Source of the DNA: Tetragonia tetragonoides
Taxonomy: Eukaryota > Streptophyta > Magnoliopsida > Caryophyllales > Aizoaceae
Length of the DNA stretch: 64,000 nucleotides
NCBI GenBank assembly: GCA_038025085.1
Contig: CM076148.1
Location: 31,850,501 to 31,914,500 of the forward strand
Direction of reading: 5' to 3'
The notes under the pieces are model-generated. The model worked only from the letters and a program-made list of their open reading frames with translations, searched no databases and was not told where the DNA came from. Position numbers and translations under genes: made by a program. Positions within the stretch are counted from its first letter, which is position 1; each line of letters opens with the position of its first letter. This document shows, piece by piece, positions 27,867-59,915 of this stretch.

Positions 27867-28502
27867 ATGGAATCAAACGTACACAATACTCTGAAAATGT
27901 TCGGCCAAAGCACAATTAGACTTGACCGTTTTGATGGAACCAATTTCCTTCGCTGGAAGGAGAAAATTGCGTTCTTACTTACAGCTCTGAAAATCTTTTA
28001 CATTTTGGACCCCAATCTGAAGCCCCTCCCTGAACCGAATGACAAAGATACTGAAGCAGTGATGGCTGAACGCAAGAAGCGAGAAGAAGATGGAATGCTG
28101 TGCAGAGGGTATATTCTCCAGTCCCTGTCTGATCGTCTGTATGATCTGTTCCGTAGCATAAAGACCGCAAAGGAGATGTGGGACTCTCTGGAATTCAAAT
28201 ACAATGCCAAAAAGCAAGGAGCAGATAAGTTCATAATTTTTCAGTTTTTCGAATTTAGTATGGATGATACTCAACCTATCTTAGATCAAGTTCATGAATG
28301 GCTTATCTTGGTATCTAAGTTTAAGGATTTGTGTATTGATATTCCTGAGAAACTGTTGGTTGGTGGTATTATTGCCAAGTTGCCTCGTTCCTGGTTTAAT
28401 TACCGGAAGAAACTGATGCATACTACTGAGGACCTTTTCTTGGAACAGTTACAGAAACATTTACGGATTGAGGAGGAAACTCGAATCGTGATAAGGCTAT
28501 GA
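27867..28502 (+). pseudogene. copia gag (capsid), frame lost at its end
   Basis: The ATG at 27867 gives a 211-codon frame with a UBN2-type copia capsid pattern: RLDRFDGTNFLRWKEKI near the start, then YILQSLSDRLYDLF, and LPRSWFNYRKKL. The gag protein packages the element RNA into virus-like particles. Near 28487 one nucleotide appears to be missing: the downstream frame (from 28499) is the natural continuation, with EEETR in one frame and DKAMNDAS in the other. The resulting stop at 28500-28502 separates gag from the zinc knuckle. Confidence 0.85.
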
Positions 28503-31500: not shown

Positions 31501-31918
31501 TAGTGGTTGGATTTTTACACTTGGTGGTGGAGCGGTTTCTTGGGTTTTAAAGAAACAAACTTGTATAACACATTCCACCATGGAGGCTGAATTTTTAGCC
31601 TTAGCAGCGGCAGGCAAAGAAGCAGAATGGCTGAGAAATATATTATTGGATATAGAGTTGTGGCCACAACCGATGTCAGCCATATCTTTGCATTGTGATA
31701 GTGAAGCTACTTTGTCTAGAGCATATAATAAGATTTATAATGAAAAATCTAGACATATTAGTTTAAGACATGCATATATAAGACAGTTAATATCCGATGG
31801 GATAATCTCTATTGTGTATGTTAAGTCTTGTAATAATTTAGCGGATCCATTTACTAAAGGTCTTCCAAAGGACATGGTCTTTGGAACGGCAAGAGAAATG
31901 GAGTTGAGACCCATTTGA
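28499..31918 (+). pseudogene. copia pol (zinc knuckle, protease, integrase, RT, RNase H), two nonsense codons
   Basis: Residues 54-67 are a CCHC knuckle (CYNCDKKGHIKHFC), and DSGATTH at 127-133 is the aspartic protease site. The integrase zinc region reads LWHNQSRHINYR where LGH is usual. The DDE core includes HSDICDFNG, NDRGGEYFPTEF and PYTPQQNGVAERKN. An in-frame TAA at 30287-30289 cuts the frame. It resumes in the same frame with the RT (CKWVFKTKYNTDG, YAPVVRITSIR, KKSLYGLKQAP). A TGA at 30860-30862 replaces the tryptophan of the QWH motif. It then runs on with YVDDM (about 30974) and RNase H (YSDASW, STMEAEF) to the TGA at 31916-31918. All conserved blocks are present, so decay is recent. 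Confidence 0.9.
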
Positions 31919-39060: not shown

Positions 39061-41046
39061 GGTGTTGCTTATTCAAAACCAATGCTTATTTTCTTTAACT
39101 TCAATTTTCTTGTAACAATTATAAGCAATTCTTTAAACGGTGTTATAAACTAATGCAAAAACAAATTGCAGGCCATTCTTAAAAAAGAAGTCATTTAGAA
39201 TACCTAAAAATAAAGTTGAGATTTGAGGTAAATTGAAACCTTATGTTCTGAAATTGCTAAAACTTATAATCAAGATATGACAAATATGAATCTCCATGGC
39301 CATTCTTAAATATAATGAAATGTTCTACCAATCATTGGCAATATTACCGTAATTAGAACCACATAACAACTGAACAATGTGATTACATATTGGTCTCCCA
39401 ATTATTGAGGTCCTCGCCCACGATGAGGGCGGCAGTGCAGAGATCGAATCTGGTGGTAGCTTTAAGAAGGTGAAAATGAATTTTAGAAGGCAGTGTGCAT
39501 CTTTGAAACCGGCGTTTTCGAAGCGTGGTGGACGGTTGTAGTTACAGATCTATGACTTTCCATGGATGAGATGAGAGAGAAAAGAGAAGAGAAAATGGTG
39601 GATAGAGTGGACAGTGGTTCCATCAGAGGTAGTTTTTTTGATGATGGAGCTCTGGGTTAGTTTGGCCGTCATCTGCTAGAAGGGTTAGTGGAGAGAGAAA
39701 GTGGGGTGCAAGGGGATGGGTTTGGTGGGACGGAAATAGAATGGGTGAAAGGAGGAGAGAGAAGGGGGTGGGGGTTACTAACTATCATGTTTAAAACAGT
39801 GAGGATGGAGGGAACAGGGAACGGTAAGAAAATAAGAAAGAGATCATTAGAGCGTGCGTGCGAGTAACGTGGATGAGCCGCCCTATTCGCGATTTTATTA
39901 TGAGTGATAAAAGCATTTAATAATTACAAAAAACTTCTATGGTTTTTTTCCAACTTTTGGTGAGATGGAGTTACTTTTCAATGAAACAAAGATCACTATT
40001 CAATACTTACCATTAATGATCCCTACATTTCTAAACAGTGATCCCATATTTCTATGAGTTGATTTTACACAAGACTTGTTTTTCAATAATATAGTCATAT
40101 GCACTACAGATGAGGGCGAATCAGAAAATAAGAGATGAAAACTGGCCAAAAATCCGAATCAGGGGATTAAACAAGTTAGTTTTAGGAGGTAGTCGACAAA
40201 GTTTATTTTATTAGGATGTTCACGACATAACTTAATAAACTTTAGGGAATTTTTGCAATTTTCCTTTTAATTATCTTTGATAATTAAAAATTTTCTTTTA
40301 ATAACCAAATGTTTGCGCTGTCTGAGGTTTTTTTTTCTTCTTATAAAGGGGAAGAAGAAAATGCGGTTTTTATCACTAACGAAGAAATGGTGAGAAAGTG
40401 GCCGCCTTCAATCAATAAATTTGATACTCCAACTAGTCGAATTGAAAAAGAAGGGAATTGCAAGATGGCTTAGGATAAAGATGGAAGAAATGCCCACTTG
40501 TGCCATCCACTACATGTGGATTGTATTTTTTGTGGTAGACCAGGTTGCCAGTACTTGATTTAATCTCTAATTTTCTACTAGTAGTAAAGGACTAAACCTT
40601 AGTTATATCATTACATGAGAGACATCCAAATAGATGCTCTTAAAAAGAAACCTCAATGCGAGGTTATTGGACAATGAATCTCCTCTTATTTCATGAAAGT
40701 GGCTTCTACCTCTAGTTTGATTCATCATTTATTCTTTGGATTGGGGCTAATTACTTCATTGTCAACATTTTTCATTATTCAAAGGGTTGTCTAAGTCGGC
40801 AAATTCTTAGTTACACTTAAGATCATCCATCTAACTGCAACGAATCCAAATTTAATAAGAGGTTTGTTCCGGTTTATTGGTCGAAATCCAAAAATAGTTC
40901 ACTACAATTTTTGCTTGTCAAATTGAGAGCACCCATCTCCCTAGAATCATATTCAGCCAATAACAATTGTTTCAACCTTAATGGTAAAGACCTTACTCGT
41001 ACTACTCTATCCGACCTGGTTTAAAGGCATAATATATGATAAAATT
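39061..41046. other. Intergenic DNA with a GC-richer block
   Basis: 39400-39850 is richer in G/C than its surroundings, purine-rich on the plus strand (pyrimidine-rich on the minus) and looks like a gene leader or transposon subterminal region, but no open frame follows. The rest is AT-rich without features. Confidence 0.4.
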
Positions 41047-41775
41047 GGCTTCAGAGGGTCAGTAAAACCATGAGATATAAACAAGATATGCTTGTAAAAG
41101 AGGTTTTTCTTTGTTAAAAAGAAGGCATAAATGCTAGATGTAAAAGAGTTTCTAATCGAGATTTTGGTCTAATTTTCAATGATTTCTATCACCTAATTAG
41201 CTGATATTCAGAAAACAAAGTTAAAACTGCGAATACTTGACCTGAAATTGTATCTCTTCTCCCCGAGCGAATATACTTCAATAAGTATCTAAAGAATGTC
41301 TTACGGCCTCAGAGATTATAGCGATTTCCTTCTTAATGCTCTGAGGCACGTGGACTTTAGAGGAGAAGTTGAGGGTGAGTATAGGTCTCTCTAAAGAAGT
41401 TGAGGGTGAGTTGGCTTCGGAGGGTCCATAAAACCATGAGGGATAATCGAGATATGCTTGTAAAAGAGGTTTTTCTTTGTTAAAAAGAAGGCATAAATGC
41501 CAGATGTAAAAGAGTTTTAAATCGAGATTTTGGTCTAGTCTTCAATAATTTTAGTCACCTAATTAGCTAAATATCCACAAAATAAAGTAATGTTAGAACT
41601 GAGAATACTCGTCCTGAAGTCGTATCTCCTTTCCCCGAGCGGATTTGCTTCAATAAGTATCTAAAGAATGTCTTACCCTTGGAGATTATAGCGTTTTCCT
41701 TCTTATTCTTTTAGGTTACGTGGACTTTAAAGAAGAAGTTGAGGGTGAGTATAGGTGTGTCGATTTCAGTGATTT
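41047..41775 (+). repeat. 366-bp tandem duplication
   Basis: Unit 1 starts GGCTTCAGAGGGTCAGTAAA at 41047 and unit 2 GGCTTCGGAGGGTCCATAAA at 41413. They share TATGCTTGTAAAAGAGG, AGTATCTAAAGAATGTCTTA and CACGTGGACTTTA / TACGTGGACTTTA. The short motif AGAAGTTGAGGGTGAGT appears three times (about 41364, 41396, 41729) and a variant a fourth time at 41788. No coding frame is conserved between the units. Confidence 0.9.
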
Positions 41776-42590
41776 AAAATCCAATAAGAAGTTAAGGGTG
41801 AGTATAGGTCTGCCGATTTCAGTAATACTAATTCAATATTTTGAATTTTATTTATTAGTGATTAGAACAAATATATGAAGGGTTAGCACTAGAAATTTTC
41901 ACAATTTTCTATCAGTTAGTCTTGTTGACAAAGTTTTTAGAATTAATAGAGATCAACGATACGTTAACAGATATGTAATATAGTTAGAGCTGCCAAAAGA
42001 CTCGAAAATCTGACCCTTATTATTCTTTATATTCTTATATATTGTTTTTTATATTTTTATCGACCCGAACCCATTTGTAACTTGAGAAAATGAATTAACA
42101 ATTGAATTTGATATAAAAACCAACTCTTAATTACCCCATCTAAACCCGAAATGACCCGATTCGTAACCTGCTGGGCTTGCTCGTTTGACAGGTTTAATTG
42201 AAGCCAATGAGAACTGTTTTGCATGTTTTTTCAAAATTATGTTGAGGCAAGTGAGTTGAACACTATTCAATTTTGAAAACATCAGATTATAGAGTTTGGA
42301 GTGGGTAACATGAAATCAGCGGTGCACCTCCACTTGATTCACCCTATAGTTAGGGTTCAAATCTCATTTACTAACAAAAAAATATTACTTTATAGTTTGT
42401 TTGATTTAACCGTTACCTGCTCCTAATCACACTTCAACAAATTGTCATAAAGCAAGATATAAAATCCAGCACTATCTCTCAACTTTTGGTTGCTAAAAAT
42501 AGTACACTCCATATTAGAATGTTCACTACTTTTCTTTCATCACAATCACTTTACACAGTGAATGTTACTACTATTATCAACCACCAAAAT
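41776..42590. other. Intergenic DNA upstream of the receptor-kinase cluster
   Basis: AT-rich. Near 42340-42370 a B-box-like GGTTCAAATCTC is followed by a short A run, possibly a worn SINE, but the A box is not convincing. Confidence 0.4.
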
Positions 42591-42605
42591 GGTCAAAGGT
42601 CAACC
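42591..42605 (-). promoter_or_regulatory. Paired W-box (WRKY-binding) elements
   Basis: GGTCAAAGGTCAACC on the plus strand is TTGACC twice on the minus strand, 7 bp apart, about 200 bp before the first ectodomain ATG. W-boxes with core TTGAC bind WRKY factors and are common in immune-gene promoters. Function here is inferred from sequence and position only. Confidence 0.5.
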
Positions 42606-42804
42606 ATTGGGGCTGATCAAGACACCTATAGCATGGACCCAAAAATAGAAGACTCCTAAAACCACCCAATCCCTCAAAAGTCAAGAAACAAAATAACAAC
42701 TCACAACCTTAAACCATTGATGATTTTTCAAGCTTCCTTCAATCCCAAATTTGTCTTCTCTCTCCTCTTCTTCACCTGCTCATCATTTTCATGGTGAATC
42801 CACA

Positions 42805-43528
42805 ATGAACAAGTCCACTTTATCAACTCTAACTTTGTTTCTCCAATTATATGTCTGTTTTTCATCAGACCCTTTTTACAACACCTGCCCTCCACAGAAA
42901 TGTGGCCAAATAGACATAACTTACCCTTTCTATATCCCTAACCAACAAAAATCATATTGTGGGTATCCTGGATTTGAGGTCTTTTGCAAAAATGGCACCA
43001 TTCCTAATCTTAATATATCCAGGGACAATTATGTTATTCAGCAAATTTGGTACAAGAACCAGTCTTTTGAAGTAAAAAATTCAGCTTTTGTCAACTTTAC
43101 TGGAAACAATTGTTTGGGTTCAATTCATAATCTGACATTGGAAGATGTTGTCTTTAACTTCTTTACAACAAAGAGGCATGTAATTTTGTTTCAAAATTGC
43201 CCAGATAACATTTTGCAACAATATGAGCATGATTTGTTGAAATGTGGAGCTCTGGGTTTGTTTGAAGATGACCCCAGAACAAAGGATTTGGGAGGGAAGT
43301 GTGGTGGGGTAGTTTTAGTGCCTTATGAAGGTCAGAGAGGTATAAATGTTGCCAAGGTTTTGGATGGTGGGATTGTGCTTAATTGGACTGCTAACAATTG
43401 CAGCGCTTGTACTGGCACTGGTGGGCAGTGTGGATTTGATCGCAGTACTTCTGAGTTCAAGTGTTTCTGCTCTGATAGAGCTCATTCTTATCATTGTGTT
43501 CCTATTCCTAGTATTCCTTTTAAGCCTA
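42805..43528 (+). CDS. LRK10L ectodomain first exon A (no kinase of its own)
   Basis: One open exon encodes a signal peptide (MNKSTLSTLTLFLQLYVCFS, from the ATG at 42805; an in-frame ATG at 42751 would add 18 residues) and a cysteine-rich domain. The GUB_WAK_bind part begins DPFYNTCPPQKCGQIDITYP with SYCGYPGFEVFC. The WAK_assoc part ends NNCSACTGTGGQCGFD...FKCFCSD. These domains face the cell wall in receptor-like kinases. The exon ends in phase 1 at a GTAAGT donor (43529), so it must be spliced onward. No kinase or mini-exon follows before the next ectodomain at 44503. The nearest acceptor in matching phase is the mini-exon at 48130. If unspliced, translation would read through into a Leu/Ser-rich tail and stop at 43584, giving a secreted ectodomain. 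Confidence 0.8.
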
Positions 43529-44502
43529 GTAAGTCTCTCCCTCTCTCTCTCTCTCTCCCCCTCTCTCTCTCTCTATTTATCTAACTGCATAAATTATTGT
43601 AGAAGTGATTTGGTAGATATTGTGCCCATAAAGTAGTTGAGTTATGAGATTTGTGTATTTGGTTAGAATATAAAGGGAGGCACAAAGGCCAATGCATATT
43701 AGTTGTGAAGTAGAATGCGTCAACCACAGTGATTATATCCCCGCGCTGACTTGTAGGCACCTCAAAGGGTGAGACAACTGGCTAAGGGATCGCGAAACCA
43801 ATTTAACGTACAGTTACTAGCTAAGCTAGCTGACATCCGATTAGAATATTTGATTTTGTCTCAGAGGAAGTTATAGGATGAGTACTTGAGTTATGAGGCA
43901 ATTTAATAGTTAGGGGGAGTGGTCTTGATTCTGAATTCTATGTTGCCAGTTGGGCATGAGATAAACAACATTGCATTGGACTAGGTTCCCAAATTCTATT
44001 GATTTGTCGAATCTTTATAGGATGACTAAAGTATGTAGTTTTTGTCCTTTAAGGCATACTTACACATAGTACTGTGAGAATGCCAATGCTAGTGCTAATT
44101 TGCTATAGTTTCTGCCTTGGTTTTAGATGTCTTGGTCACTGTACTCTGGAGTCAATCCTCTTTCTTCACAGTTCCCATCAGATTTGCTAGGGGACGGCTT
44201 TGCAAATCGCAATGGCAACTCCCCTAGTCAGATACTATGCATCCTTACAGCATTATTGAATGTAAGAGCAATTAGATACAGTGAACTTCTTAAGTAGCAT
44301 TGTCGAGGAGGAAAAAATCATTTTAGGATCCCAAAGGACACTGAATTTGTTGGTAAGATGACAAATCCTGTGTTGTTTATAAACAAATCTGAGCTTCTCT
44401 TATATTCTGAACGAGCTGTGATCATTACCACTAGCTCTAAACTCTATGTTTGAGCACAATCACAGAAGTCAAATACCGTGTCCTTTTCATCTACACAAAA
44501 AA
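43529..44502. other. Spacer/intron between ectodomain exons A and B
   Basis: Begins with a long CT tract (43533-43573) just inside the donor. The remainder has no kinase exon and no recognisable element. Confidence 0.6.
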
Positions 44503-45256
44503 ATGAGCCCAATTTTCATCCTAACGCTCCTCCTTTCGTTGTCACAAAATTCTCACTCTCTAGACCCATATTATGAAGCCTGCAAGCCAAGAGAGTGTGG
44601 AGGCCTAAGCATCAACTACCCTTTCTATCTTAGTCGCCTACAAGAGCCCTATTGTGGCTACCCTGACTTCCAAGTCACCTGTAACCACAATAATCACACA
44701 ATCATCAAGATATCTAATGATAACTACATCATTCAGAATATTTCTCATGATGATCAGTCATTTCGTGTTGTGAATTCTGCCTTTCTAGACCCTGTCTTTG
44801 GCTGCATTTCTTCAATCCATAATCTTATCTTAGACGATGTAAGGTTCAAGTTTGCTTCCAATCACAGCAGCTTGCTTTTGCTCCAACATTGCTCTGAAGC
44901 AGCAGCAACCGAAGACTTCAGGCAGTTCAAGGAGATGTCGTGCATTGATGAACATGAAAGTAGGAAGATATTTGCAGCATACGAGACAGAAAATGATTTG
45001 AGGAAATTGAATTTGGAAGGGATCTGTGAGAGCGTGGTTTCTGTGCCATATGAAGGTCAGAATAGCAGTGACATCGAAAATGTGCTGAGGAGAGGGATTG
45101 CCTTGAAATATACTGCTGGAAATTGTGATGCCTGCAGTAGTAGCGGAGGGAGGTGCGGGTATGATGAGGCTACCTCAGAGAACAAATGTTATTGCGCTGA
45201 TAGGCCTCATATCTATGCATGCCGTTACTTTAAACCTCCTTCTGTGTCTACTTCCA
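44503..45256 (+). CDS. LRK10L ectodomain first exon B (no kinase of its own)
   Basis: Signal peptide MSPIFILTLLLSLSQNSHS from the ATG at 44503 (an in-frame ATG at 44446 gives a longer, less signal-like start). Then GUB_WAK_bind (DPYYEACKPRECGGLSINYP, PYCGYPDFQVTC) and WAK_assoc (GNCDACSSSGGRCGYD, NKCYCADRP). The exon ends in phase 1 at GTGAGT (45257). It is closer to exon C than to exon A. Again no transmembrane or kinase exon follows before exon C. Unspliced read-through stops at 45381. Open throughout with conserved cysteines, which argues for selection on the encoded ectodomain. Confidence 0.8.
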
Positions 45257-46060
45257 GTGAGTCTTCCCCTCTCTCCTTCGCGCTCTTCTTAGGCTGTTCT
45301 AGCAAGTCATTGACCTCAGCAACTGGTTATGCTAGGAACTTTGTTTTCTTTTTTGTTTGTTTGTTTGTTATTCATTCATGAAGCATATTGCATTTTGGCT
45401 AGCTAGATGTCGGCTGCATCTGCCTTTGTGCATCATACATTCATACTCTTCTGGTTGAATAAACAGATGGTATCTTTGTTTATTCAAATTTGTGGTGCTG
45501 TTCTGTGACAGTAACTCGAAAGCAACCAGCTTGTTTTTTAATGTGTTCGTAGAACATTCAATGGGAGCATCTTTTTCTTATACTAAGTGTCAGGTGATGA
45601 ATAGCAAATCATATAATAGACCACTCATACAACTTGTTTACTTAAAGTTGTCTTATTCTAATCAAAACCTTAGTTACTATATTCACTCAAAAAAAAACCC
45701 CCTTGGTTAGTATAAATTTCATAGAGCAGGTGTACATAAATTATCCCATATACCATCTAAAATGGGATAACTATCAGCTAAATATCATGGAGATCTCTTA
45801 CAATACAGAGAATCTGAGTATTTAATATCCGTCTGATGTCAATGTTCTGTATTCTTCAATCAAGCTATTATATACAAAATAATACATCATGTAGTAGGTT
45901 TTGACCACTCAAATAATAGACTCCAAAATTGAAGACGAAGTGGAAAGTCAAAGGAACTGACTCCTCAAAGTTCTATTTGTGTAACCTTAGACCTTACTTG
46001 GTTTGTCTCTCTGTCTATTTCTCCATCCTTACTCCGTTCTCTCAATCTTTCTTTCTTCAA
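45257..46060. other. Spacer/intron between ectodomain exons B and C
   Basis: Starts with a pyrimidine-rich stretch after the donor. A W-box (TTGACC) is at about 45900 and AAAGTCAAAGG at 45942, 120-160 bp before the exon C start. No exon recognised. Confidence 0.5.
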
Positions 46061-46787
46061 ATGACTCAACTCCTCAGAGTTATAAGCCTCTCTGTGTCAG
46101 TTCTCTTCTTTCTGCCTGTTTCGTTATCCTTGGATCCATATTTTGAAGCCTGCAAGCCTAAAGAATGTGGAGGCATAGCAATTAACTACCCTTTCTATCT
46201 TCAAGGTTTAAGCAACTCGTTTTGTGGATACCCAGGATTTGTGGTTTCTTGCAGGAGCAACCGTACAATCATTAACCTATCTAATGATAATTATGTCATC
46301 CAAAAGATCTCCTACGATGATCAATCAGTTACTATGGTCAACACAGCCTTCATAGATACTGTCTTCAACTGCAGTCCTGTCACTCACAATCTCACCTTGG
46401 ATGGCACGAAATTCAAATTAGCTAGCGACCACAGTGAGGTATTTTTCTTGCAAAATTGCACTAAAGAAGCAATGGCAAGCATTAAGCAGTACAGACAAAT
46501 ATCATGCAAAGATATTGATGAAACTAGGATAGTTATTGCAGCATATGCACGAGATATGAATTCAGAAAATTTGGCTGGCAAGTGTACAAGCGTGGTTTCA
46601 GTGCCATATGAAGGCCAAGATGAAAGCGATATTGAAGGTGTGCTTAGAAGCGGACTTGTGTTGCAATGGACAGTCGGTAGTTGTAGCGAGTGTATTGGTA
46701 GTGGAGGGCGATGTGTATATAATAAGACTAGTTCACAAACACAGTGTTTCTGCTCTAACGGTCCGTCTCTTGGTAGATGTCATAACA
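46061..46787 (+). CDS. LRK10L ectodomain first exon C (nearest to the kinase module)
   Basis: The ATG at 46061 starts a signal peptide (MTQLLRVISLSVSVLFFLPV) followed by GUB_WAK_bind (DPYFEACKPKECGGIAINYP, SFCGYPGFVVSC) and WAK_assoc (SVPYEGQDESDIEGVL, GSCSECIGSGGRCVYN, QCFCSN). A longer in-frame ATG at 45929 gives a poorer signal peptide. The exon ends in phase 1 at GTGAGT (46788). Joining it to the acceptors at 48129, 48304 and 48640 gives a complete LRK10L protein of about 660 residues with all reading frames matching. This is the most parsimonious gene model for the kinase at 48130-49614. The intron would be 1342 nt and would span a dead ectodomain. Confidence 0.82.
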
Positions 46788-47380
46788 GTGAGTCTCTCTC
46801 TTTCTCCCTTTCTTTGCCTATGGCTTCCATTATCCATTGCAGTCACTATAACCTAGTTGTCAAGGTTGCTATAGCTTCTGTCTTAACTGCATTTCTCATC
46901 ATTGTCCATAAGGAAACGTAGGACTATAGCTGCCCCAAATTAACGTCAGCCAGTACCTTACTCAGCATAATGCTTACTCTGATCACACTTCATAACGTAA
47001 TTTTGTATTATCTCAGAGTAACTTCTTTTCTAATGACCTATAAATTTCCACAGCACAAAACAAGTTTTCCTAGTCAGATGCAAACTGTTCTTTGAAGATC
47101 TTTGGTGCTGCAAAATGCTTTGTGTGCTAACATAAATACGTTTTAGCTAAAGAGGTGCTGAATGGTTTTTCATATTAGGTCAGGAAACTATCCACTTATG
47201 GTACTATATACAACATACACATAATGATCAGGGGGGTGTAAGGTTTCTTAGTTTCCCGATTTTCGTTTAAATGGCTCCTGTAATTATACCCATGTTGCCA
47301 GTTTCGCTGTGTTACATGTGCGGATTGCTTTTGTTTTTCACATTTTGACAGCTTAACTTCTAGTAGCCACTTCTGTTATA
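46788..47380. other. Intron/spacer after ectodomain exon C
   Basis: CT-rich for the first 30 nt, then AT-rich without features. An in-frame read-through of exon C would add a hydrophobic tail and stop at 46921. Confidence 0.5.
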
Positions 47381-47455
47381 CATCTTGTGGTTGTGATTAT
47401 GAATCTGCCTAAACTTTTTGGTTGAAAGACTTGCAAAAATGCTTAAATGTTCTTC
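47381..47455 (+). promoter_or_regulatory. Conserved upstream block of the LRK10L genes, decayed copy
   Basis: CTTGTGGTTGTGATTATGAATCTG and AAAGACTTGCAAAAA recur upstream of the ectodomains at 50758, 55711 and about 60118. Here the block precedes a dead ectodomain, so it marks an old promoter. Confidence 0.6.
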
Positions 47456-47790
47456 ATAGCTATTCCATTCTCGCATCAAAGTGATGCTGAATATACAATT
47501 TATAACATATCTGCATGCAAATATATGAGAAACAATTTGGACCACTAAGCCTTGTGAGACTGACTATACTGCCCCAGAGCTTAATAGAAGGTTATATGAA
47601 CTCAGTAATGGCAATGGCATGCTTCTTGCCCGAGGGTTTTGAGTAGGATTACTTACTGAATTTCACAACCTGTAAGACTTGAGAATTCTGACGGCAGATG
47701 TGGATCATCAGGTGCTGCAACACCAAGTGTCATTTGTTACTGCCCAGATGGATCACAGGCATCAATGTGCCATAGATGATAGATCTGGTG
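47456..47790 (+). pseudogene. Dead ectodomain exon of the first kinase gene
   Basis: The start (CTATTCCATTCTCGCATC ... GATGCTGAATATACAATTT) matches the beginning of the mature ectodomain of the genes at 50758 and 55711. The end matches their WAK_assoc part (RRLYELSNGN, then CENSDGRCGSS, ICYCPDGSQASMCH with frameshifts). The middle of roughly 500 bp is missing, and stops (for example in GGGTTTTGAGTAG near 47640, and TAG at 47778) close every frame. So the kinase just downstream has lost the ectodomain that sits in front of kinases elsewhere in the cluster. Confidence 0.8.
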
Positions 47791-48129
47791 TAGTAAATTC
47801 TATTAAAACATACACTCCCTATATATAACTGTGTGTAAGTAGGCATGGTAATAAGTATGCGTTTGTTCTGCACTTCTGCGGTTCTGTTGCTGTATTTGTT
47901 CCATCTCAGGCGAACAATAAACTCATGCTTAACATGGTTTCTTCTGTTCCTGTTATTCTTTCTGACTCAGCTTATCTTATGCATCCGCCCTTCATAGGAA
48001 ATGGAAGAACAGATTTTCCCCTTTTATCATTCACATAATTTTTGACTCGGAGGGTTTAACTACTAGATATATGTAGCTTCCATGTATTTTGATCTATGAT
48101 ACTAACAACGATCACTTGTTTCTTTGCAG

Positions 48130-49614
48130 AAAAGAAAAAGTTGGGACTAATAATCGGATTAGGTGAGTCAATATTTTTCAATCAATCAAATTCATCTGAT
48201 TAACATACATACATTATAATGTGCCATAGTATATACCATATATATCGACGAACTAGATGCTACGCTCTGCAAATTGTCTGACTCGTGATCTTCATCTCCA
48301 CCAGGAATTTCAGGAGGTATACTTGTTATAGCAGTACTAATAGCATTCTGGTATCGCAAAAAGCTAAAATTTGGTCACTCAAAGTTTATCTCAAGGAGCC
48401 TCTCCCTTGAACATACGCCGTCAGACCTTGAAAGGGGGAGCTTATACTTTGGTGTGCCACTCTTCTCCTACAGTGAACTTCAAGAAGCCACTGACGATTT
48501 TGATCAGTCCAGAGAGCTTGGCGATGGTGGCTTTGGAACAGTTTATTACGGTAAAGCTTAAATTGACATCATTCTCAAAAGCATATCTTTCAAAATAATC
48601 ACAAATGGTAATTAATTTATATTTCTTTCCCTCATCCTAGGCAAACTACGAGATGGAAGAGAGGTAGCTGTAAAGCGCCTATTCGAGAAGAGCTACAGAA
48701 GGGTAGAACAGTTCTTAAATGAAGTTCAGATACTCACCTGTTTGCGTCACCAGAATCTCGTCTCTCTCTATGGATGCACTTCTCGTCACTGCAGAGAACT
48801 CCTCCTTGTCTACGAGTTCGTGCCCAATGGGACTGTGGCTGATCATCTGTCTGGTGACAAGGCCAAAACCGGATCACTCCCCTGGCCTGCCCGAATGCGA
48901 ATTGCCTTAGAAACAGCCAGTGCACTCTCTTATCTCCACGCTACTGACATCATTCATCGTGATGTCAAGACCAACAACATTCTTCTCGACAGCAGCTTTA
49001 GTGTCAAGGTGGCTGATTTTGGGCTTTCTAGACTCATCCCTAACGATGTCACTCATGTCTCGACTGCCCCACAAGGAACTCCTGGGTATGTAGACCCGGA
49101 GTATCACCAGTGTTATCAGTTAACAGATAAGAGCGATGTTTACAGCTTTGGGGTTGTGCTCATAGAGCTGATATCTTCACTGCCGGCAGTGGACATGGAC
49201 AGGCACAGGCAAGAGATTAATTTGTCCACCTACGCAATGAACAGGATCCAACGTTGTGCATTCGATGAGCTTGTGGACCCACAACTCGGGTTCATGTCAG
49301 ATTTCAAGGTTAAGAGGATGACTACTTCGGTGGCAGAGCTTGCGTTCCAGTGCCTGCAACAGGACAAGGAATTCAGGCCGTCAATGGATCAGGTTTTGGA
49401 GATTTTGAAGAAGATTGAGAGTACTGATTATGACAAGTTGAAGGCAGCAGAGGCAGCAAAAACTGACGGGGTGGTGAAAAGTAGCAAGCCACCACTTTCA
49501 CCTACAGAAAACGATGCTAAACTGTTGCCTATTCGTCAACCTCAGCCATCGTCGCCAAATTCTGTGATGGATAAATGGGGTAGTAGAACCACTACACCCA
49601 GTAGCAGTAATTAA
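48130..49614 (+). CDS. LRK10L kinase module (three exons), intact, fed by upstream ectodomains
   Basis: Exon 48130-48162 (33 nt, KKKKLGLIIGL), exon 48305-48550 (transmembrane GGILVIAVLIAFWYRKK, juxtamembrane, glycine loop LGDGGFGTVYYG) and exon 48641-49614 (rest of kinase and tail). All junctions are GT..AG and phase 1. The kinase has VAVK (48664-48675), HRD (48955-48963, IIHRDVKTNNILLD), DFG (49015-49023) and APQGTPGYVDPEY in the activation segment, so it looks catalytically competent. The tail ends SPNSVMDKWGSRTTTPSSSN. It is a Ser/Thr kinase domain for the inner face of the plasma membrane. It has no signal peptide or ectodomain of its own except the relic at 47456-47790. It should be expressed by splicing from exon C, B or A. 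Confidence 0.88.
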
Positions 49615-50503
49615 GGTGCATTTTTTTTCCACCTATATGAATTATTTAGTAACCAATTGTAAATTTATAGTTTTGTTTTATTTGTGAAATGGTCCATTTC
49701 TGACTACTGTGCACATAAGGATTAAAACTTCCATGGAAGATGTACAGAGAGGACATTGAACAATAAAATACTTTCTTACCCTGATCTTCAAAAGATGAAG
49801 ATCCATGTTTTGGAGAGTTCGATACGACTCACTTTAGCATCAGGAGTTTTCGAATAGAGAAAGATAGCAAGAAATAGAAAAGAAAAATTGAACAAAGTCT
49901 ATCATATACATCAGCATAATCTCAAAGCGTTCATCCACTTTGTTCATTACCATCATTCCTGCTATCAGCTATCACCAAAGAATATATTTGTCTCTTAGGC
50001 TTTTTTGGTTAGAAGCAAGATGTTTTGCTCCTCGGAAATTTTCTTTTACAAAAGTTATTCATAGCTTAACAATAAATATGAGACAGAGAGGTAAGATTTA
50101 CCTGCAATATATTTCTCTTCTCAGCAGAAATGAGTTCTTTCGCTAACCATGAAGGGGAAGGTTGTCTTCTTAAACAGTTTCCGCTACTCTTTCACATAAG
50201 CAACCAACAGAAATGGAAAAGGAAACTCTACCTACAAAGCAAAGCCTTTAAAATGGCAGAACCTGCAGAGGTAAGTTCTCGGACCAGACGAGACATAACT
50301 TCAATTACGGGGCATAGAAGAATCTGTAATCAAGTCTCAGTCAAGAACTGAGAAAGCATAATTATTAACTGAAAAATTATTTTGCTAAACAGGGCCTTAG
50401 AGTTTTAAGGGGTACCACCTCTCTTTCCCTCTTGGGTGTAATCTCTAATATGACCACATAATTCTAACCTCGTCAACTGGGAAAGGTCTTTGGCATGTTA
50501 CGT
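49615..50503. other. 3' UTR and spacer
   Basis: The first 200 bp (AGGTGCATTTTTTTTCC, GGTCCATTTCTGACTAC) recur after the stop codons at 53668 and 58104 and are the shared 3' UTR. The rest has only short chance frames. Confidence 0.6.
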
Positions 50504-50600
50504 ATCTTGTGGTTATGAATCTGGTTAAAGTTTTTGGCTAGAAAGACTTGCAAAAAGCAAGTCAAGTGTCTCAGCTGCTAGCCTGTGAGGTTGGTCCCCT
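50504..50600 (+). promoter_or_regulatory. Conserved upstream block of the LRK10L gene at 50758
   Basis: Contains CTTGTGGTTATGAATCTGG, AGAAAGACTTGCAAAAAGC, AAGTCAAGTGTCTCAG (W-box-like GTCAA) and TTGGTCCCCTT, shared with the blocks at 55473 and 59916. It lies about 160-250 bp before the ATG. Confidence 0.6.
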
Positions 50601-50757
50601 TCCTTTGACTCTTCTTTCCCCCTTGATTTGCACATTACAATAGTGTACTTAGCAAAACAATGAACAGAACATTCTCAGTTCATAAGCATATCATGCACAG
50701 AAAAACCATAGATAGATGTCCATGAAACACAACTTCCCTCGACATAATACACAAGAA

Positions 50758-53668
50758 ATGGTTGCCAGTTTCTTTACCATACATGTCATCATCGCAACTT
50801 CCATAATCTTCATAGTTATTCCATCCTCAAATGGAATTGATGCGCAATATACAATCTGCTCTCCTCAGTATCCGTGTGGGGTGGTAAAAAATATCAGTTA
50901 CCCATTCTGGGGAGGCGATAGGCCTCAGTTCTGTGGCCGTCCAGAGTTCCAGCTCGACTGTCTTAGTATCAGTGATTACCCTTCTATCACCTTTAATACT
51001 ACTGGAGAACACCCTGAGAATGCAAAAGTACTTAGTATCAATACATCCACTCATAAAATGGCCATAGCCTTAGATCGTTTCCTGAAAAGCATTCCTATTT
51101 GCCCCCAAAAGTCGAACATCACATTAAATTTGTCAGCAGTGTACAAGAACAGCTCAAGCGTTGCAGACCTTCGCTTATTCTATGGTTGTCCCAGTTCATT
51201 CTCAAAATATCAGCACAACTCTTTTAATTGCTCATACTACAATCAAACCGAAGAACCTGCTTTCTTTTTTTCGGAAACATCAGGAAATAGAGCAGCGATT
51301 GAGTCTTGCAAGAATAACTTTGCTATCCCAGTGTTTCGGAGAGGGTTAAATGAGCTATATAATGGAACTGCCACGCTTCTGAGTGTCTTGAAGAAAGGGT
51401 TTGAGATGGATTACATATTTAATTTCACGATCTGTACAACATGTGAGAGTTCTGGCGGCAGATGTGGATCATCAGATACTGATTCATCAAAGTTTGTATG
51501 TTACTGCCCAGACGGACCTCAGCAATCAATTTGTCCTAAATCAGGTGAGTACTAGACATTTGTTTTGCATTCTTTACCTTTGTTCTGTCTCAAGGTGGTT
51601 TCTGCAGTTCATTTTCTTTATTCTTACATAAATCATCCTTAGGCATCTTCACTTCGTAGGAAGCGGAAGAACATATTTTTCCTTTGCATCGCATGGCTTA
51701 GATTTTCCCCCTCCCTTAATGCTCTATCATACAGAGTCGTGCAGCTAACTCACACAACATCTTTTGATTCTCCCTCCCCTATGGCCCAAAACGCTGTCCT
51801 TTTCTTTTCAAGTGGTATCGAATTTCTTTTTATACCATGATACACCAACTGTATTCAAAACTGGACATATGTAGAGCACATGTATTATCTAATACAAACT
51901 CTGATCTCTCAATTATTTTCTTTGCAGAACAGGAAAAGGCAAGAATGATAGCTGGATTAAGTAAGTATATTTCAATAAATCAAATTCATGTGATTACGAT
52001 ACTTCCATCATAGTGGTTCATCCCCCGAACAGAAAGTTTCATTATCCACTAATACTGTCAACTAATTGTTTTGTAGAAAAGGAATACGTAGGACTAATAA
52101 GCGGACTGGGTAAGCAACTATTTTTTCTGACCCTCTCATATCCATTTGATGAAGATACATACATCATAAAGTCACATAATACCCTTGTGCTTCAAAATTT
52201 TTAATTTGTTCTTGTGTTTCCTGTGTTCCCCTCTTAAATAATTAATGAAAAAGAAAACACACACTTTTTATACCTAAACAAAGGCTCTGCAACTTAGCAG
52301 ACACATGACCTTCATCATCTATTAGCCATTTCAGGAGGTGTATTTGTGGTTATAGTACTCATAGCATTCAGGCATCGGAAGAAGCTAAAGCTTGGTCACT
52401 CCAAATTAGTCTCACGGAGCGTCTCCCTTGAACACACCCCATCAGACCTCGAAAGAGGCAGCAGGTACTTTGGCCTGCCACTCTTCTCTTACAGCGAGCT
52501 TGAAGAAGCAACTGACAATTTTGATAAGTCCAGAGAGCTTGGCATTGGTGGTTTTGGAACAGTTTACCATGGTAAGAAAAACTCAAATTTACATCAGTCT
52601 TGAAAGCATACCTATCCCCAGATTATTCGAAAAAAAGTAACAGATGACAAAGGTTTGCTTTTTATTTTCCTTTCCCTCTTTTCCATCCTAGGCAAACTAA
52701 GAGATGGAAGAGAAGTGGCGGTAAAGCACCTGTTTGAGAAGAGCTATAAAAGGGTGGAACAGTTTCTGAATGAAGTTCAAATCCTCACCTGCTTGAGCCA
52801 CCAGAACCTCGTATCCCTCTATGGTTGCACTTCTCACCACTGCAGGGAACTCCTCCTTGTCTACGAGTATGTGCCTAATGGGACAGTGGCTGATCATCTG
52901 TATGGAGACAAGGCCAAAATCGGATCACTTCTCTGGCCAGTCCGTATGAGAATTGCTTTAGAAACAGCCGGTGCACTCTCTTATCTCCACGCTTCTGACA
53001 TCATACACTGTGATGTCAAGACCAACAACATTCTGCTTGACAACAGCTTCAGTGTCAAGGTAGCTGATTTTGGGCTATCTAGAGTACTTCCTAACAATGT
53101 CACTCATGTCTCCACAGCCCCACAGGGAACTCCAGGGTATCTAGACCCACTGTATCACCTGTGTTACCGGCTGACAGATAAGAGCGATGTTTACAGCTTT
53201 GGGGTTGTGCTTATCGAGCTCATATCTTCCTTGCCTGCGGTGGACATGGACAGGCACATGGACGAGATTAACTTATCCAACTATGCTATGAACAGGATCC
53301 AACGGTGTGCATTCGATGAGCTGGTAGATCCAGGACTGGGATTCATGTCGGATTTCAAGGTTAGGAGGATGACTATTTCAGTGGCAGAACTTGCGTTCCA
53401 GTGCTTGCAACATGATAAGGAATTCAGGCCGTCAATGGATGAGGTTTTTGGGGCTTTGAAAAGGATCGACAGTGCTGATTATGAAGCGTTGAAGGCATCA
53501 GAGGTGGCAAGAAACGATGTGGTGGTGAAAAGTAGCAAGCCACCACCTTCACCCACAGAAAATAATGATGCTAAACTATTCCCAAATCGTCCACAAAAAC
53601 TATCCTCGCCAAATTCTGTGATGGATAAGTGGGGTAGTAGGTCCTTTACACCCAGCAGCAGCAAGTAA
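50758..53668 (+). CDS. LRK10L receptor-like kinase with duplicated mini-exon and HCD motif
   Basis: Exons: 50758-51544, 51928-51960, 52077-52109, 52326-52571, 52692-53668; all junctions phase 1. The start at 50758 (MVASFFTIHVIIATSIIF signal peptide) matches the neighbour at 55711; an in-frame ATG at 50716 exists. Ectodomain: GUB_WAK_bind (YTICSPQYPCGVVKNISYPF, QFCGRPEFQLDC) and WAK_assoc (CTTCESSGGRCGSS, FVCYCPDGP), with many N-glycosylation sites. Two 33-nt mini-exons (EQEKARMIAGL, KKEYVGLISGL) stand where the other genes have one. Transmembrane GGVFVVIVLIAF; kinase with LGIGGFGTVYHG, VAVK and DFG. The catalytic loop reads IIHCDVKTNN: Cys (TGT, 53009-53011) replaces the Arg of HRD. About 690-705 residues. 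Confidence 0.9.
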
Positions 53669-55067
53669 GGTGCACTTTTTTTCACTTATATGAAGTAATA
53701 AACCAAGTGTAAATTATTTCTCTTTTTACTGGAAAGAAGGTCCATTTCTGACTACAATGTGTATAGAGATTTCAAGTTTTATCGAAGACGTACACAGAGA
53801 AGGTCAAGTCATAGTTTACATTCTTGTCATAATCTTCAAAACATGAAGATCTATGTTGGATAGTTTGGTTTCAGGAGTGTCATAACCTGCTTTGAAGCAA
53901 TTTGGTCACACGCTCTTCTATATCTACCATGATGAGCAACAACAGTTCTTCCAAAGATCTTGGTAGATCAGTTATCAACTCTAGTTCAGCCTCAGTATCA
54001 TATTACAAAGATCAACTCCGTCCCGCCAGTGGCCATCACGTTAATCATCTACATCAAGACCTTCCACGCCTTAGCCTAATGAGGCGTTTTTTTGACCAAA
54101 TAGGGCGTTTTAAAATGCCCCCTTTGGACTGAAATGTTGTAGTGCACGCTTTCTGCTCGGACAACTCCCTTTGCAATCGGCTACTCCTCCTATAACCCTT
54201 TCAGATCCTGCCATCTCTCATTGACAAAACTCAACCAACACCAATACTCGACCAAGTTTCCTACAACTCAAATGAATTGTTGCTCAACAACTCGAATTCG
54301 GTGAAAACCAGCATCATTCTAAAAACCAGTACCAGCAATCCTTGGGCCGAAATTGTCCAATGGACACATTCAGGCATCAACATCCCATCCTAACTACCAC
54401 AGTCCTAGCATCGGCCATGGCAACCTGTTATTCTTTCTAATTTCCTCCAAAACGACCACCAAAATGTAAGCATGACATTGCTAGATAGACCTGCTTCACT
54501 CAATCAAACGAAAACACTCGTGTGTGAAACTGCAAACTCAATCTTATCATACCAATCCTAATATCCCGATACACCACATTCGCCATTGTATTTGGCTAGA
54601 GCATAACTGTCCAAAACAACACCCTAAATCTCAGATCTAACTGAGTTATCTACTGATTTACTCAACAGAATTGTCAGATGCACAATGTTCTGTGCTAATG
54701 CTTAAGAAGTGTTGAGTGACTTCTACTCCCTTTAAAACAGAGGAAATAGATAGTTGTTCGTTGTAGCCATTACATATTAGATGGGGTTGATTCTCTTTCT
54801 GACGAAGTTTAATGCTTCCCATCTTCTATCCACCTGATGTAGTCAATGGTTCCTTGATTTGATTGTTATCAGCTAGCATGTATTTGGTACTTCTGATTGC
54901 TTCTATTTATGACTAATTCGTTCTTACTATAACCAATTCTCACCGTTGTGCAATTCTTCAAGCTCGTCTAACACGTAAACCATGTTTCATTTCACATGCT
55001 ACCTGAAATTATTTCTAGCTTATCGTCTTCTAAGTTTTCTACCTGATAGCTTGGTGTCTGGAGGAGA
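53669..55067. other. 3' UTR and a C-rich spacer
   Basis: The shared 3' UTR runs to about 53880. A 76-codon frame at 53902-54132 (Ser-rich, no domain) and a perfect hairpin GGGCGTTTTAAAATGCCCC (54103-54121) follow. From 54140 to 54640 the strand is poor in G and rich in A and C, unlike the rest of the cluster; origin unknown. Confidence 0.4.
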
Positions 55068-55078
55068 TTGTATGATTT

Positions 55079-55191
55079 TTTTTTGGCCAGTACAATATAT
55101 AAATATACACGGGAAAGGGGAGATTCGAACCTAAGACCTGACGTACCAAGCACGGAAGCACATCAGTCCTAACCACTAGGCCAAGACATCC
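55079..55191 (-). mobile_element. tRNA-derived SINE, 113 bp
   Basis: On the minus strand: GGATGTCTTGGCCTAGTGGT (A box TGGCCTAGTGG), then a B box GGTTCGAATCTCC, then a short body and a poly(A) tail (T at 55074-55084). The target duplication TTGTATGATTT is at 55068-55078 and 55192-55202. This is the hallmark of a pol III-transcribed SINE mobilised by LINE enzymes. Confidence 0.85.
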
Positions 55192-55472
55192 TTGTATGAT
55201 TTAATATGTGGCAGAAACTGTACAAGAAAGTTCCCGGGGCAGATGAGACGTAACGTTAATAACGGGGCTTACATAGAAGAATCTAAAACGAACTCTCATT
55301 AATTATAAATATCAAAGTCTTACGTCGAAAAAGGTGCAATTAATTTACCTGGAAAAGATTTTCCATCACAAACAGGCCATAGATCAAGAGTATGTACTAC
55401 CTCTTATCCATCTTGGCTGTATACATGACCATGGATTTTCTGTACTCATCAATTTGGCAGTGTTATATGACT

Positions 55473-55548
55473 TTTGGTTGTCGGCTAGAAAGACTGGCAA
55501 AAGTTAAGAGAAGTCTCTAAATTGCTAATATTTGAGGTTGGTCCCCCT
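55473..55548 (+). promoter_or_regulatory. Conserved upstream block of the LRK10L gene at 55711
   Basis: Shares GGCTAGAAAGACTGGCAAAA, AAGTCTCTAAATTGCTA and GAGGTTGGTCCCCC with the block at 50504, at the same distance (about 160 bp) from the ATG. It lacks the GGTTATGAATCTG part in clean form. Confidence 0.55.
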
Positions 55549-55710
55549 TGATGACTTTTCTTTCCCCTTCAGTTTTCACATTCAATAGAGTACTAAGAAC
55601 AATAAAGAACAGAAAATTCTCTGTTTTTATTAGGAAAATTAAGGTATCAAACATAGAAAAACTATTCATAGATGTCTTTGAAACACAAACTTCATTGACA
55701 TACACAAAAC

Positions 55711-58104
55711 ATGGTGGCAAGTATCTTTACCGTACACTTTGTAATCACAACGTTTATCATCTTCTTAACTATTCCATTCCTGGATGGAAAAGATGCAGAT
55801 TATTCAGCCTGCTCGTCTACGAACTCGTGTGGGTTGATTCAAAATCTCAGTTATCCATTCTGGGGAGGCGACAGGCCCGAGTTCTGTGGCCATCCGGAGT
55901 TCCAGCTCAATTGTCATAATACCAGTGAGCACCCTTATATCTCATTTGATGGTATTATGGAACACCTTGCTCAAAGGGCAAGGGTGCTTAGTCTCAATAC
56001 AACCACTAAGAAAATGGTTGTTGCCTTAGCATATTTCTATTATCCTACGCGTCTTTGTGTTCCTACTGATTACAAGTTCGATGCGATAAATTTGTCAACA
56101 TCCTACAAACTCAGCCAGAGTGTGCAGAAACTTGACCTTTTCTATGGTTGTCCTAATTCATCTCAGGCCAAATCATTTCCATGCGGATACAACAATGGTT
56201 CCAATGGATCTATTTTATACTATGCCGAAACATCAGACATAATTGAAAGGGAGATTAAATCTTGCAAGATTAACTATACTATCCCGGTGTATAAGAGAGG
56301 GTTTAATGAGCTCAGTAATGGAAAGGCATCCCTTCTGAGTGTTTTGAAGGAGGGATTTGAGATGGAGTATATAGTGAACTCCAAAGCCTGTATGATATGT
56401 GAGAACTCCGGTGGCAGATGTGGATCACCAAAAGAAGCATCATCACATTCATCCAAGTTTATGTGTTACTGCCCACATGGACCAGAGCCATCAATGTGTC
56501 ATAAATCAGGTGCAGTAATCTTCTACAAAAAACAATCAGCATGAACAGTAGCCATAAACATAGAGTAACAAAACATGCTTAACAAGGTTATATATACGCT
56601 GACACTTTCTTTCTTTTTTGTTTTTTTTTTTTTTTCAGAAAAGAGTAATGTGGGACTAACAATATTAGGTAAGTAGATACTTTTCACTCACTCAAATGTG
56701 AAATGAATCCATGATCAAACTATATGGTGCAATATTATTTCTATGTGCTTCAAAATCTTTTCTTTTTTTTTTTTTTTCTCGTCTTTCCTCATTCATCAGG
56801 CAGCTCAGGAGGTATAATATTGCTTTCAGTACTACTCCTTGTAATCTGGTATTGCCAGAAGCGAAATTTTGGTCACTCAAAATTTGTCTCAAGGAGCAGC
56901 TCGTGTGAACGCACCCCATCAGACCTAGAAAGGGATAACAAATACTTTGGCCTGCCACTCTTCTCCTACAGCGAACTTAAGGAAGCCACTGACAATTTTG
57001 ATCAGTCCAGAGAACTTGGCATTGGTGGCTTTGGAACAGTTTACAATGGTAAGGCTTAGGTTAAGTCACTCTCAAAGGCATAAATACCTTCTGAGTAAGA
57101 AAAAAAGGGTTTAGCTAACTATAAACGTTTTCTCTTGCTTTGTTTTTCCCATCTTAGCCAATCTAACAGATGGAAGAAAAGTGGCAGTGAAGCGGCTGTT
57201 TGGGAAGAGCTACAAATGGGTAGAACAGTTCGTAAATGAAGTTCAAATCCTCACCCTTTTACGCCACCAGAACCTTGTCTCACTCTATGGCTGCACTTCT
57301 CGTTACTCCAGGGAACTTCTCCTTGTCTATGAGTATGTGCCTAATGGAACGGTGGCTGATCATCTGTACGGCAACAGAAGCAAAACAGGGTCACTCACCT
57401 GGCCTGTCCGTATGAGAATTGCCTTAGAAACAGCTAGTGCACTCGCTTATCTCCATGCTAGTGACATCATTCATCGCGATGTCAAGACCAATAACATCTT
57501 GCTCGACAGCAGCTTCAGTGTCAAAGTGGCTGATTTTGGGCTTTCTAGACTCTTCCCTAACGATGTCACTCATGTCTCGACAGCCCCACAGGGTACTCCA
57601 GGATATCTAGACCCGCTATATCACCAGTGTTACCGGCTGACAGATAAGAGTGATGTTTACAGCTTTGGAGTTGTGCTCATAGAGCTCATATCTTCTTTGC
57701 CTGCAGTGGACATGAACAGGCGCATGCAGGAAATCAACTTGTCCAACTACGCAATGAATAGGATCCAACGAGGTGCATTCAATGAGCTGGTGGATCCACA
57801 ACTTGGTTTCAAGTCAGATTTTAAGGTTAAGAAGATGACTATTTCGGTGGCAGAGCTCGCGTTCCAATGCTTGCAACACGACAAGGAATTTAGGCCATCA
57901 ATGGATGAGGTCTTGGATTGTTTGAAGCAAATAGATAGTGCTGATTATGAAGTATTGAAGGCAACAGAGTTGGCAAGAAACAATGGGGTGATAGAAAGTA
58001 ATGGTGCTAAACTATTACCTAATGGTCAGCCTCACCCATATTCTCCAAACTCTGTGATGGATACATGGGGTAGTAGGTCTACTGCACCCAACACTAGTAA
58101 GTAA
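55711..58104 (+). CDS. LRK10L receptor-like kinase, intact
   Basis: Exons 55711-56509, 56639-56668 (30 nt, one codon shorter than in the paralogues), 56800-57048 and 57158-58104; all phase 1 with GT..AG. Signal peptide MVASIFTVHFVITTFIIFL. GUB_WAK_bind (YSACSSTNSCGLIQNLSYPF, EFCGHPEFQLNC) and WAK_assoc (CMICENSGGRCGSP, FMCYCPHGP). Transmembrane GGIILLSVLLLVIWYCQKR. Kinase: LGIGGFGTVYNG, VAVKRLFG, IIHRDVKTNNILLD, VADFGLSR, APQGTPGYLDP and SDVYSFGVVL, all canonical. About 674 residues, normal for LRK10-like type 1 proteins. The last exon starts ANLTDG where relatives have GKLRDG. Likely role: plasma-membrane receptor kinase sensing wall or apoplastic cues; ligand unknown. Confidence 0.92.
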
Positions 58105-59915
58105 GGTGAGACATTTTTCGACATCTACGAAGTAGTAAACAACTGTAAATTGATAATTTGTTTGAACCTTGTATTGCATTTCTGACAACTATGCATATAA
58201 GGATGTCAAGTCTTATTAAAGATGTACAGAGAGGAGATTCAGCATTAGTTACATTCTTACCTTATATCAAAGTGTTCAAAACATGACGATCCATTTTCGA
58301 GAGTTCGATTTTACTTTAGCTCCAGGAGTTTTTCAAAAAGACTCCCAACTTCTGCCAGAAGAAATGGCTTGATTGTTGCAGAATTTGTTTTTCTGCAACA
58401 TCTGATCAGCTGAAAAATTATACATAACACAACATCAAAGTCTGAAATTAATACCAAATTAATACATCATGAAAACATAGATTTTTCTAAGGTGAACTCT
58501 ATTTATACAATGTTAATCATGGTGCCCGCAAATGGCACCTTGAAAGACAGTCACACAATATGCTAGCTAGTCACTCTATGATTGCCGATGCTATTTGTTC
58601 TTAGATACTACATGTTAACATGTAGTTATTCATAAGAACATGATTTGAATATATGAAAAACTTTTTAAATGGTGAAGCAAGTGTATTCAATTTAATGCCC
58701 CTATTAAGGAATTTATAAGGAGAAGTTCTAAAACAGTATGTAATAAGGTATATTATTAGCATGGCAAAGCACCATTTACATTCAAAAACCATATCTGTTC
58801 TACCGTGTACAATACTCCTTCCATTTCTAAGTATTTATCACCTTAGCTTTTCGAGATAAACTTTGACTTTAATTTGAGAAAACAAATGCAACTAACAAAT
58901 GAAAAACACTGAAATATTCATATCGCATAAAAAAAACTTCCATAATATTATCAAGCTTTGTCAAGCAATATTGCTGCAAAGAGGCAACCTTAACTGTCTA
59001 GAATTTTCAACCGAAAGGAAGGTCAAGCAATCTCTTTGAATATTTCATCATCAACCCTTTCAATTTTGAGCCAAAAGATATTTCAATGAAGATGCTCAAA
59101 ATTAGAATATTACTCGTATTACCTTTCAAAACAAAATATGTATATTTTCTATAGCACGAGTAGCCACGTTCAATAGTGGAGCCCGATAATAGTTGACCCA
59201 ACTCGAAAATACTGAGAGGAACCTCAAAGTAACCAGACTTGGAATGAAATGACCATATTCTAATGTTTATAAAAGTCATTTTCTATCATTTCACATTTAT
59301 TTTTGATGTGTTGGACCACTAACCCGAAATTGAACTCAAACCAACCTCTTAATCCATCACAAATAAAAAGACCTAAATCCGAACATATGAATACTTAATT
59401 TAGCAACTCCCGCGAGAAGGGTGTACTAACTCTCACCGCTTTAACTCTTAAAGATCATATACTTACTGTTGTTGATACTTCTAGTAAGAATAGCACAAAC
59501 AATAGAAGTCGCTTACAAATGTGCTATCTTACTTTATGTTTCTCTCGCGGTATTGGCAAGTCATTTTCTCAGCATGAGGACACTTTTTTTCCTCTTAAAG
59601 AGTTGTTCATACAATAAATCTGACTACATAAAAGGACAGGAAAACAATTTCAGTGTAACAAAGCCTTAATATGTGGTAGAAATTTCACAAGAGTCCCAGG
59701 GGCAAAGGAAAAGCAACGTAATAGACAGGGCACAGAATCGAACTTACTAATGTGAATCAGAAAATAAGTGTCATCCAAAAAAATCAAAGTCAAGTTGACT
59801 TGGAAAATCGACGTGATGGACAGCGCACAGAATCGAACTTACTTATGTGTAAACAGAGCAAATATCACCTGCAAAATAATTTCCATCAGTATACACGCTC
59901 ATTGTAGACTACTAT
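58105..59915. other. 3' UTR and spacer
   Basis: The first 200 bp are the shared 3' UTR. At 58817-58870 a fragment (ACTCCTTCCATTTCTAAGTA) resembles the left end of a Stowaway MITE, but no right end was found. No gene. Confidence 0.5.

Follow-up and report, generated by a model that had tools for sequence, protein, structure and literature searches.

A probable LRK10L-1 receptor kinase gene of Tetragonia tetragonoides with three alternative ectodomain first exons and a dead fourth

Alternative extracellular parts on a common kinase have been described in Arabidopsis, where the published account of LRK10L3 includes peptide support for an alternative first exon, with distinct extracellular parts and identical transmembrane (TM) and kinase parts, and where the authors propose that diverse signals feed one core (PMC13136898). 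For AT1G18390, two isoforms arising from alternative start sites have been described (PMC10337256). As far as these published descriptions go, the locus reported here resembles the Arabidopsis genes in having an alternative first exon or start site, but differs from the two isoforms described there in possessing three live exons, a dead fourth by the kinase, and a duplicate from which one of the three is missing. Tandem variable first exons which encode the recognition part of a protein and are spliced to shared 3' exons are also familiar from the mammalian UGT1A and clustered protocadherin genes. The locus shares with these the recognition-encoding tandem first exons and the common 3' module, although the proteins are unrelated, and the plant locus specifies one kinase receptor and has just three live exons. 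The design is thus already known in Arabidopsis, and the present locus appears to be a larger variant in which the kinase-adjacent sensor is dead; a search of a limited literature collection found no description of a locus with three live exons, or with a dead exon adjoining the kinase.

The window, by which we mean the whole stretch of 64,000 nucleotides that was analysed (C10:31850501-31914500, in a 752-Mb genome), probably contains one LRK10L-1 receptor-kinase gene, in which three live alternative first exons feed one kinase and a fourth exon is dead (Table 1). The core of this interpretation, a cassette of alternative ectodomains for a single kinase, had been proposed in the initial annotation and is upheld by comparison with a duplicate locus on C8 and with Chenopodium and spinach, but the dead fourth exon and the C8 copy had gone unnoticed.

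Table 1. Coordinates of the exons of the locus, in positions of the window
Feature	Position	Strand	Description
Exon A	42805-43528	+	Signal peptide, GUB_WAK_bind, WAK_assoc; ATG start, open; phase-1 donor GTAAGT at 43529
Exon B	44503-45256	+	Ectodomain first exon; ATG start, open; phase-1 donor GTGAGT at 45257
Exon C	46061-46787	+	Ectodomain first exon; ATG start, open; phase-1 donor GTGAGT at 46788
Dead D-type ectodomain exon	~47447-47777	+	Weak signal-peptide-like start, middle gone, in-frame stops, 3' end recognisable
Mini-exon, 33 nt, first of kinase module	48130-48162	+	Phase-1 acceptor, AG at 48129
Putative TM and juxtamembrane part, kinase start	48305-48550	+	In frame with each ectodomain exon; splice sites conserved in C8
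Kinase exon, including the stop codon	48641-49614	+	Pkinase match; C8 counterpart 98% identical, stop-free

Reading of the sequence and Pfam matches together confirm that the three exons are open and have phase-1 donors, with GUB_WAK_bind and WAK_assoc over the curated cut-offs in A, B and C, and that they are followed by one three-exon kinase module with a phase-1 acceptor (48130-49614; Pkinase at 48643-49611). The donor positions originally quoted refer to the G of GT, and the exons end one base earlier. As A, B and C each end one base into a codon, directly before the donor, any of them can be joined in frame, as had been claimed, giving uninterrupted products of 658 (A), 668 (B) and 659 (C) residues in which the sole stop is the terminal one. 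The locus thus combines at least two open ectodomain exons of matching donor phase with a single kinase acceptor 3' of them. Between ectodomain and kinase, a hydrophobic stretch in 48130-48550, judged by eye, represents a putative single TM. Kinases named LRK10L-1.1/1.2 occur both among the search hits and beside this kinase in the tree, which places the gene in the LRK10L-1 (WAK_LRK10L-1) grouping, and all three ectodomains have the GUB_WAK_bind and WAK_assoc composition of that grouping.

According to our interpretation, transcription would begin upstream of A, B or C, and the phase-1 donor of the chosen exon would be joined to the single acceptor, over an intron of 4601 (A), 2873 (B) or 1342 (C) bases. 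B or C, when contained within a longer transcript, would be skipped, since first exons lack an acceptor. Consistent with this, a crude scan found no acceptor-like sites in the stretches surrounding the ATG of exon B (44300-44560) and of exon C (45850-46130), as expected for first exons, while such sites are present elsewhere, including one at 44633 inside B. Each product would carry a signal peptide and a galacturonan-binding-type ectodomain on the common TM and kinase. We infer separate promoters, a choice according to tissue, the use of all three exons, and distinct ligands. The final exon base at all three live donors is A rather than G, and pyrimidine-rich stretches lie directly 3' of each (43529-43590, 45257-45285 and 46788-46820); a role of these features in splicing control is possible.

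That no TM or kinase exon lies between A, B and C was likewise confirmed, as tblastn with the locus's own TM and kinase as query gave no match in the A-B, B-C or C-kinase gap at E-values up to 10, and TM or kinase remnants among the ectodomain exons were ruled out on this basis. A decayed D-type ectodomain exon in the C-kinase interval had been overlooked in the initial annotation. The name refers to gene D, which together with genes E and F lies downstream of the kinase module; these are ordinary genes with one ectodomain and one kinase each. The 3' end of the relic matches residues 244-273 of D (57%) and 235-269 of E (51%), with in-frame stops just upstream of the matching part and most of the middle lost, while the match at its 5' end is faint for the window copy (E-value 0.05-0.1) and clearer in C8 (E-value 1e-4). 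It is also dead in C8 (89% nucleotide identity across 47447-47860), and occupies the position held by a live ectodomain in D, E and F.

Positions 40162-59800 of the window are colinear with the duplicate at C8:~12161100-12197400, where A, B, the relic and the kinase occur in unchanged order, with protein identities of 88% for A, 94% for B and 98% for the kinase. The frame of A is open and its donor present, B is open with an identical donor, the kinase is free of stops, and the splice sites of the kinase module are conserved, including the mini-exon acceptor and GT donor. Since order and splice sites are repeated in this way, chance offers no sensible explanation of the layout. Exon C is missing: the alignment covers just the first 17 nt of C before it restarts at 46962, the two ends lying no more than four bases apart in C8, which fits a deletion of C in C8. 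The counterparts of D and E (C8:12179568-12186933) are interrupted by stops or broken frames in the ectodomain or the kinase, the D ectodomain stopping after 189 of 279 residues, with a broken kinase frame, and that of E after 159 of 281. The C8 counterpart resembling F appears to be open (a 306-aa ectodomain frame and a kinase match without stops), so that two of the three neighbour genes have decayed while the unit of A, B and kinase is intact. Only A and B are seen as ectodomains upstream of the C8 kinase, and with C deleted, the relic dead and the kinase retained, a remote ectodomain is the sole visible one for that kinase, which very probably uses it, as judged from the sequence. That only exon C joins 48130, originally put forward as a condition speaking against the cassette, is impossible for the C8 copy, which is without C.

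Nonsynonymous and synonymous changes between the C10 and C8 copies were compared by Fisher test, with site counts taken from the window copy. Constraint is strong on exon B (Ks 0.173, omega 0.14, p 5e-9) and on the kinase exon (Ks 0.089, omega 0.08, p 1.2e-8), and weak on exon A (Ks 0.145, omega 0.42, p 0.0047), with fewer nonsynonymous than synonymous changes per site in all three. In the interrupted copies of D and E, omega up to the first stop codon was 0.57 and 0.65, little above that of A, and the nucleotide identity of A to C8 (~93%) does not exceed that of its flanks.

The weak constraint on A is one of the observations that would be expected if only the nearest live exon were used (C in C10, B in C8), with A, and in C10 also B, being either solo genes for secreted ectodomains or remnants of tandem duplication in the course of decay. 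A lone copy of exon A with its flanks, 97% identical to window positions 42481-44101, does occur on the minus strand at C10:4352712-4353419 and has no LRK10L-1 kinase nearby, only other-kinase-like fragments at least 6 kb downstream. On C11 there is a broken ectodomain exon with a 149-aa frame, and the two cases together indicate that orphan ectodomain exons do arise as leftovers in this genome. AATAAA-like motifs occur in the gaps between the exons, although these are not diagnostic. We nevertheless regard this explanation as unlikely, as A and B have remained open, with donors, at two loci ever since the duplication, B is strongly constrained, and several related plants have an A-type ectodomain joined to a kinase of this type.

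Relatives in other plants were collected by a protein search with C and the kinase as query, from which the best 120 of 7975 candidates scored were taken, the set reaching 130 proteins with further searches; the kinase start was located in 113 of these 130. Kinase identity was at least 97% in 59 pairs, and in four of the 59 the ectodomains were less than 40% identical. The Chenopodium LRK10L-1.2 gene models X1 and X2 (P0008 and P0002), which come from contigs of equal length, have kinase segments that are 100% identical and ectodomains that are 38% identical. In spinach, the kinase segments of P0018 and P0004 are 100% and the ectodomains 30% identical, but these gene models stem from two different annotations, such that a single locus is not established for the pair. 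Two Camellia pairs were discounted, as both involve P0010, an unusual 833-aa entry without an ectodomain match, paired with entries of other listings; isoform series from other plants gave no support, the ectodomains of Populus alba X2, X4, X5 and X6 being 97-100% identical.

In the ectodomain tree (54 rows), A groups with Chenopodium X1 and spinach P0018 (14 rows, support 100/99), and B and C share a group of 5 rows (100/98) with the X2 entries of Chenopodium and spinach, to which C is nearer than B (94/85). The named plants beside A, B and C in this tree are Caryophyllales, the order to which T. tetragonoides belongs. The Chenopodium and spinach junctions, as judged by eye, lie at the start of the segment matching the mini-exon, which is the place of 48130. 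These gene models therefore resemble the window locus in carrying A- and C-type ectodomains on identical kinases, joined where the TM-side segment begins, and differ in having no B-type isoform: no B-specific foreign isoform was matched, and a protein search with the B region returned two proteins, neither of them an isoform partner. Two short contigs, P0006 with 2505 bases and P0007 with 2663 bases, each combine an A-type ectodomain and a kinase in one open frame, of 651 aa and 679 aa respectively, which fits spliced transcripts of related plants.

Fusions of A- and C-type ectodomains to kinases in other plants also argue against each ectodomain exon being a separate gene for a receptor-like protein, either soluble or anchored by a hydrophobic tail from a retained intron. 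When B and C are read on past their donors (45257-45378 and 46788-46918), the frames do end in hydrophobic tails, that of B being only partly kept in C8, and the lone A copy exists, but the tails of A and B are poorly kept in C8 and the kinase would be left without a live ectodomain, against its omega of 0.08, so that we consider this very improbable. Hardly credible at all is that the three exons formerly had kinases of their own, since lost, and that the kinase 3' of them is now a truncated protein acting independently of ligand, for although its own D-type exon is dead and its nearest relatives in the array are the kinases of D, E and F, the gaps hold no kinase remnant, all splice sites are conserved and the same isoform design exists in Chenopodium.

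The trees also bear on the history of the kinase. In the kinase tree, from which P0006 was left out because the motif overlooked it, the kinase of the locus groups with those of D, E and F (8 rows, support 100/99), with Amaranthaceae and Caryophyllaceae kinases adjoining, and comparison of the two trees shows that the ectodomain types diverge much more deeply than the kinases. The grouping, the deep ectodomain split and the D-type relic suggest one of two histories: an ancestral locus may have possessed A, B/C and D-type exons with one kinase, and been partly copied later to give D, E and F, or a D-type kinase may have been captured by the upstream exons.

A second locus of what looks like similar design is found elsewhere in the genome. 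The interval C3:46405001-46415000 contains three ectodomain frames, all open (290, 385 and 305 aa), which lie 5' of one LRK10L-1 kinase (62% identical), without a kinase match between the three frames, and the same order is repeated at C16:6932001-6942000, where, however, the ectodomain closest to the kinase is interrupted, leaving two frames of 129 and 143 aa. Between C3 and C16, omega is 0.73 for the farthest ectodomain (p 0.38), which may be an unrelated exon, 0.40 for the middle one (p 0.010), 0.31 for part of the nearest (p 0.026, 118 codons), and 0.10 for the kinase; the C16 kinase is thus likewise constrained beside a broken nearest ectodomain. As 150 of 205 genome candidates were scored in one search and 124 of 2224 in another, the loci named here are at least those present.

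A wider interpretation, towards which we lean with rather less assurance, is that of an obligate shared-kinase cluster, in which the kinase's own adjacent ectodomain is dead and the kinase would owe its survival entirely to a series of alternative ectodomains at a distance, as in UGT1A. This arrangement would recur in the genome (C10/C8 and C3/C16), its ectodomain exons being acquired, lost or relocated as modules. Were this so, a single signalling enzyme could be coupled to several cell-wall sensors via promoter choice alone, and the sensors could evolve as exchangeable exons. Duplicated loci with and without C, and with a nearly constant kinase, would permit a direct test of the contribution of each ectodomain. 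Annotation can also easily go astray at such loci, either leaving ectodomains as orphans or merging two of them into one protein, the latter illustrated by Rhododendron P0027, with two full ectodomains within a single predicted protein.

An A-type exon with a phase-1 donor also lies 5' of a kinase of another subfamily at C14:7344207-7346923 and C2:7696381-7699598 (75% and 73% identical to A). These downstream kinases are only 31-34% identical to that of the window, and an ectodomain swap between kinase subfamilies is possible on the sequence evidence. Within the window, cross-matches to C8 revealed two diverged copies of ~350 bases upstream of A (41045-41761), and at 28472-31918 long frames split by stops resemble, by eye, a Copia-type retrotransposon polyprotein.
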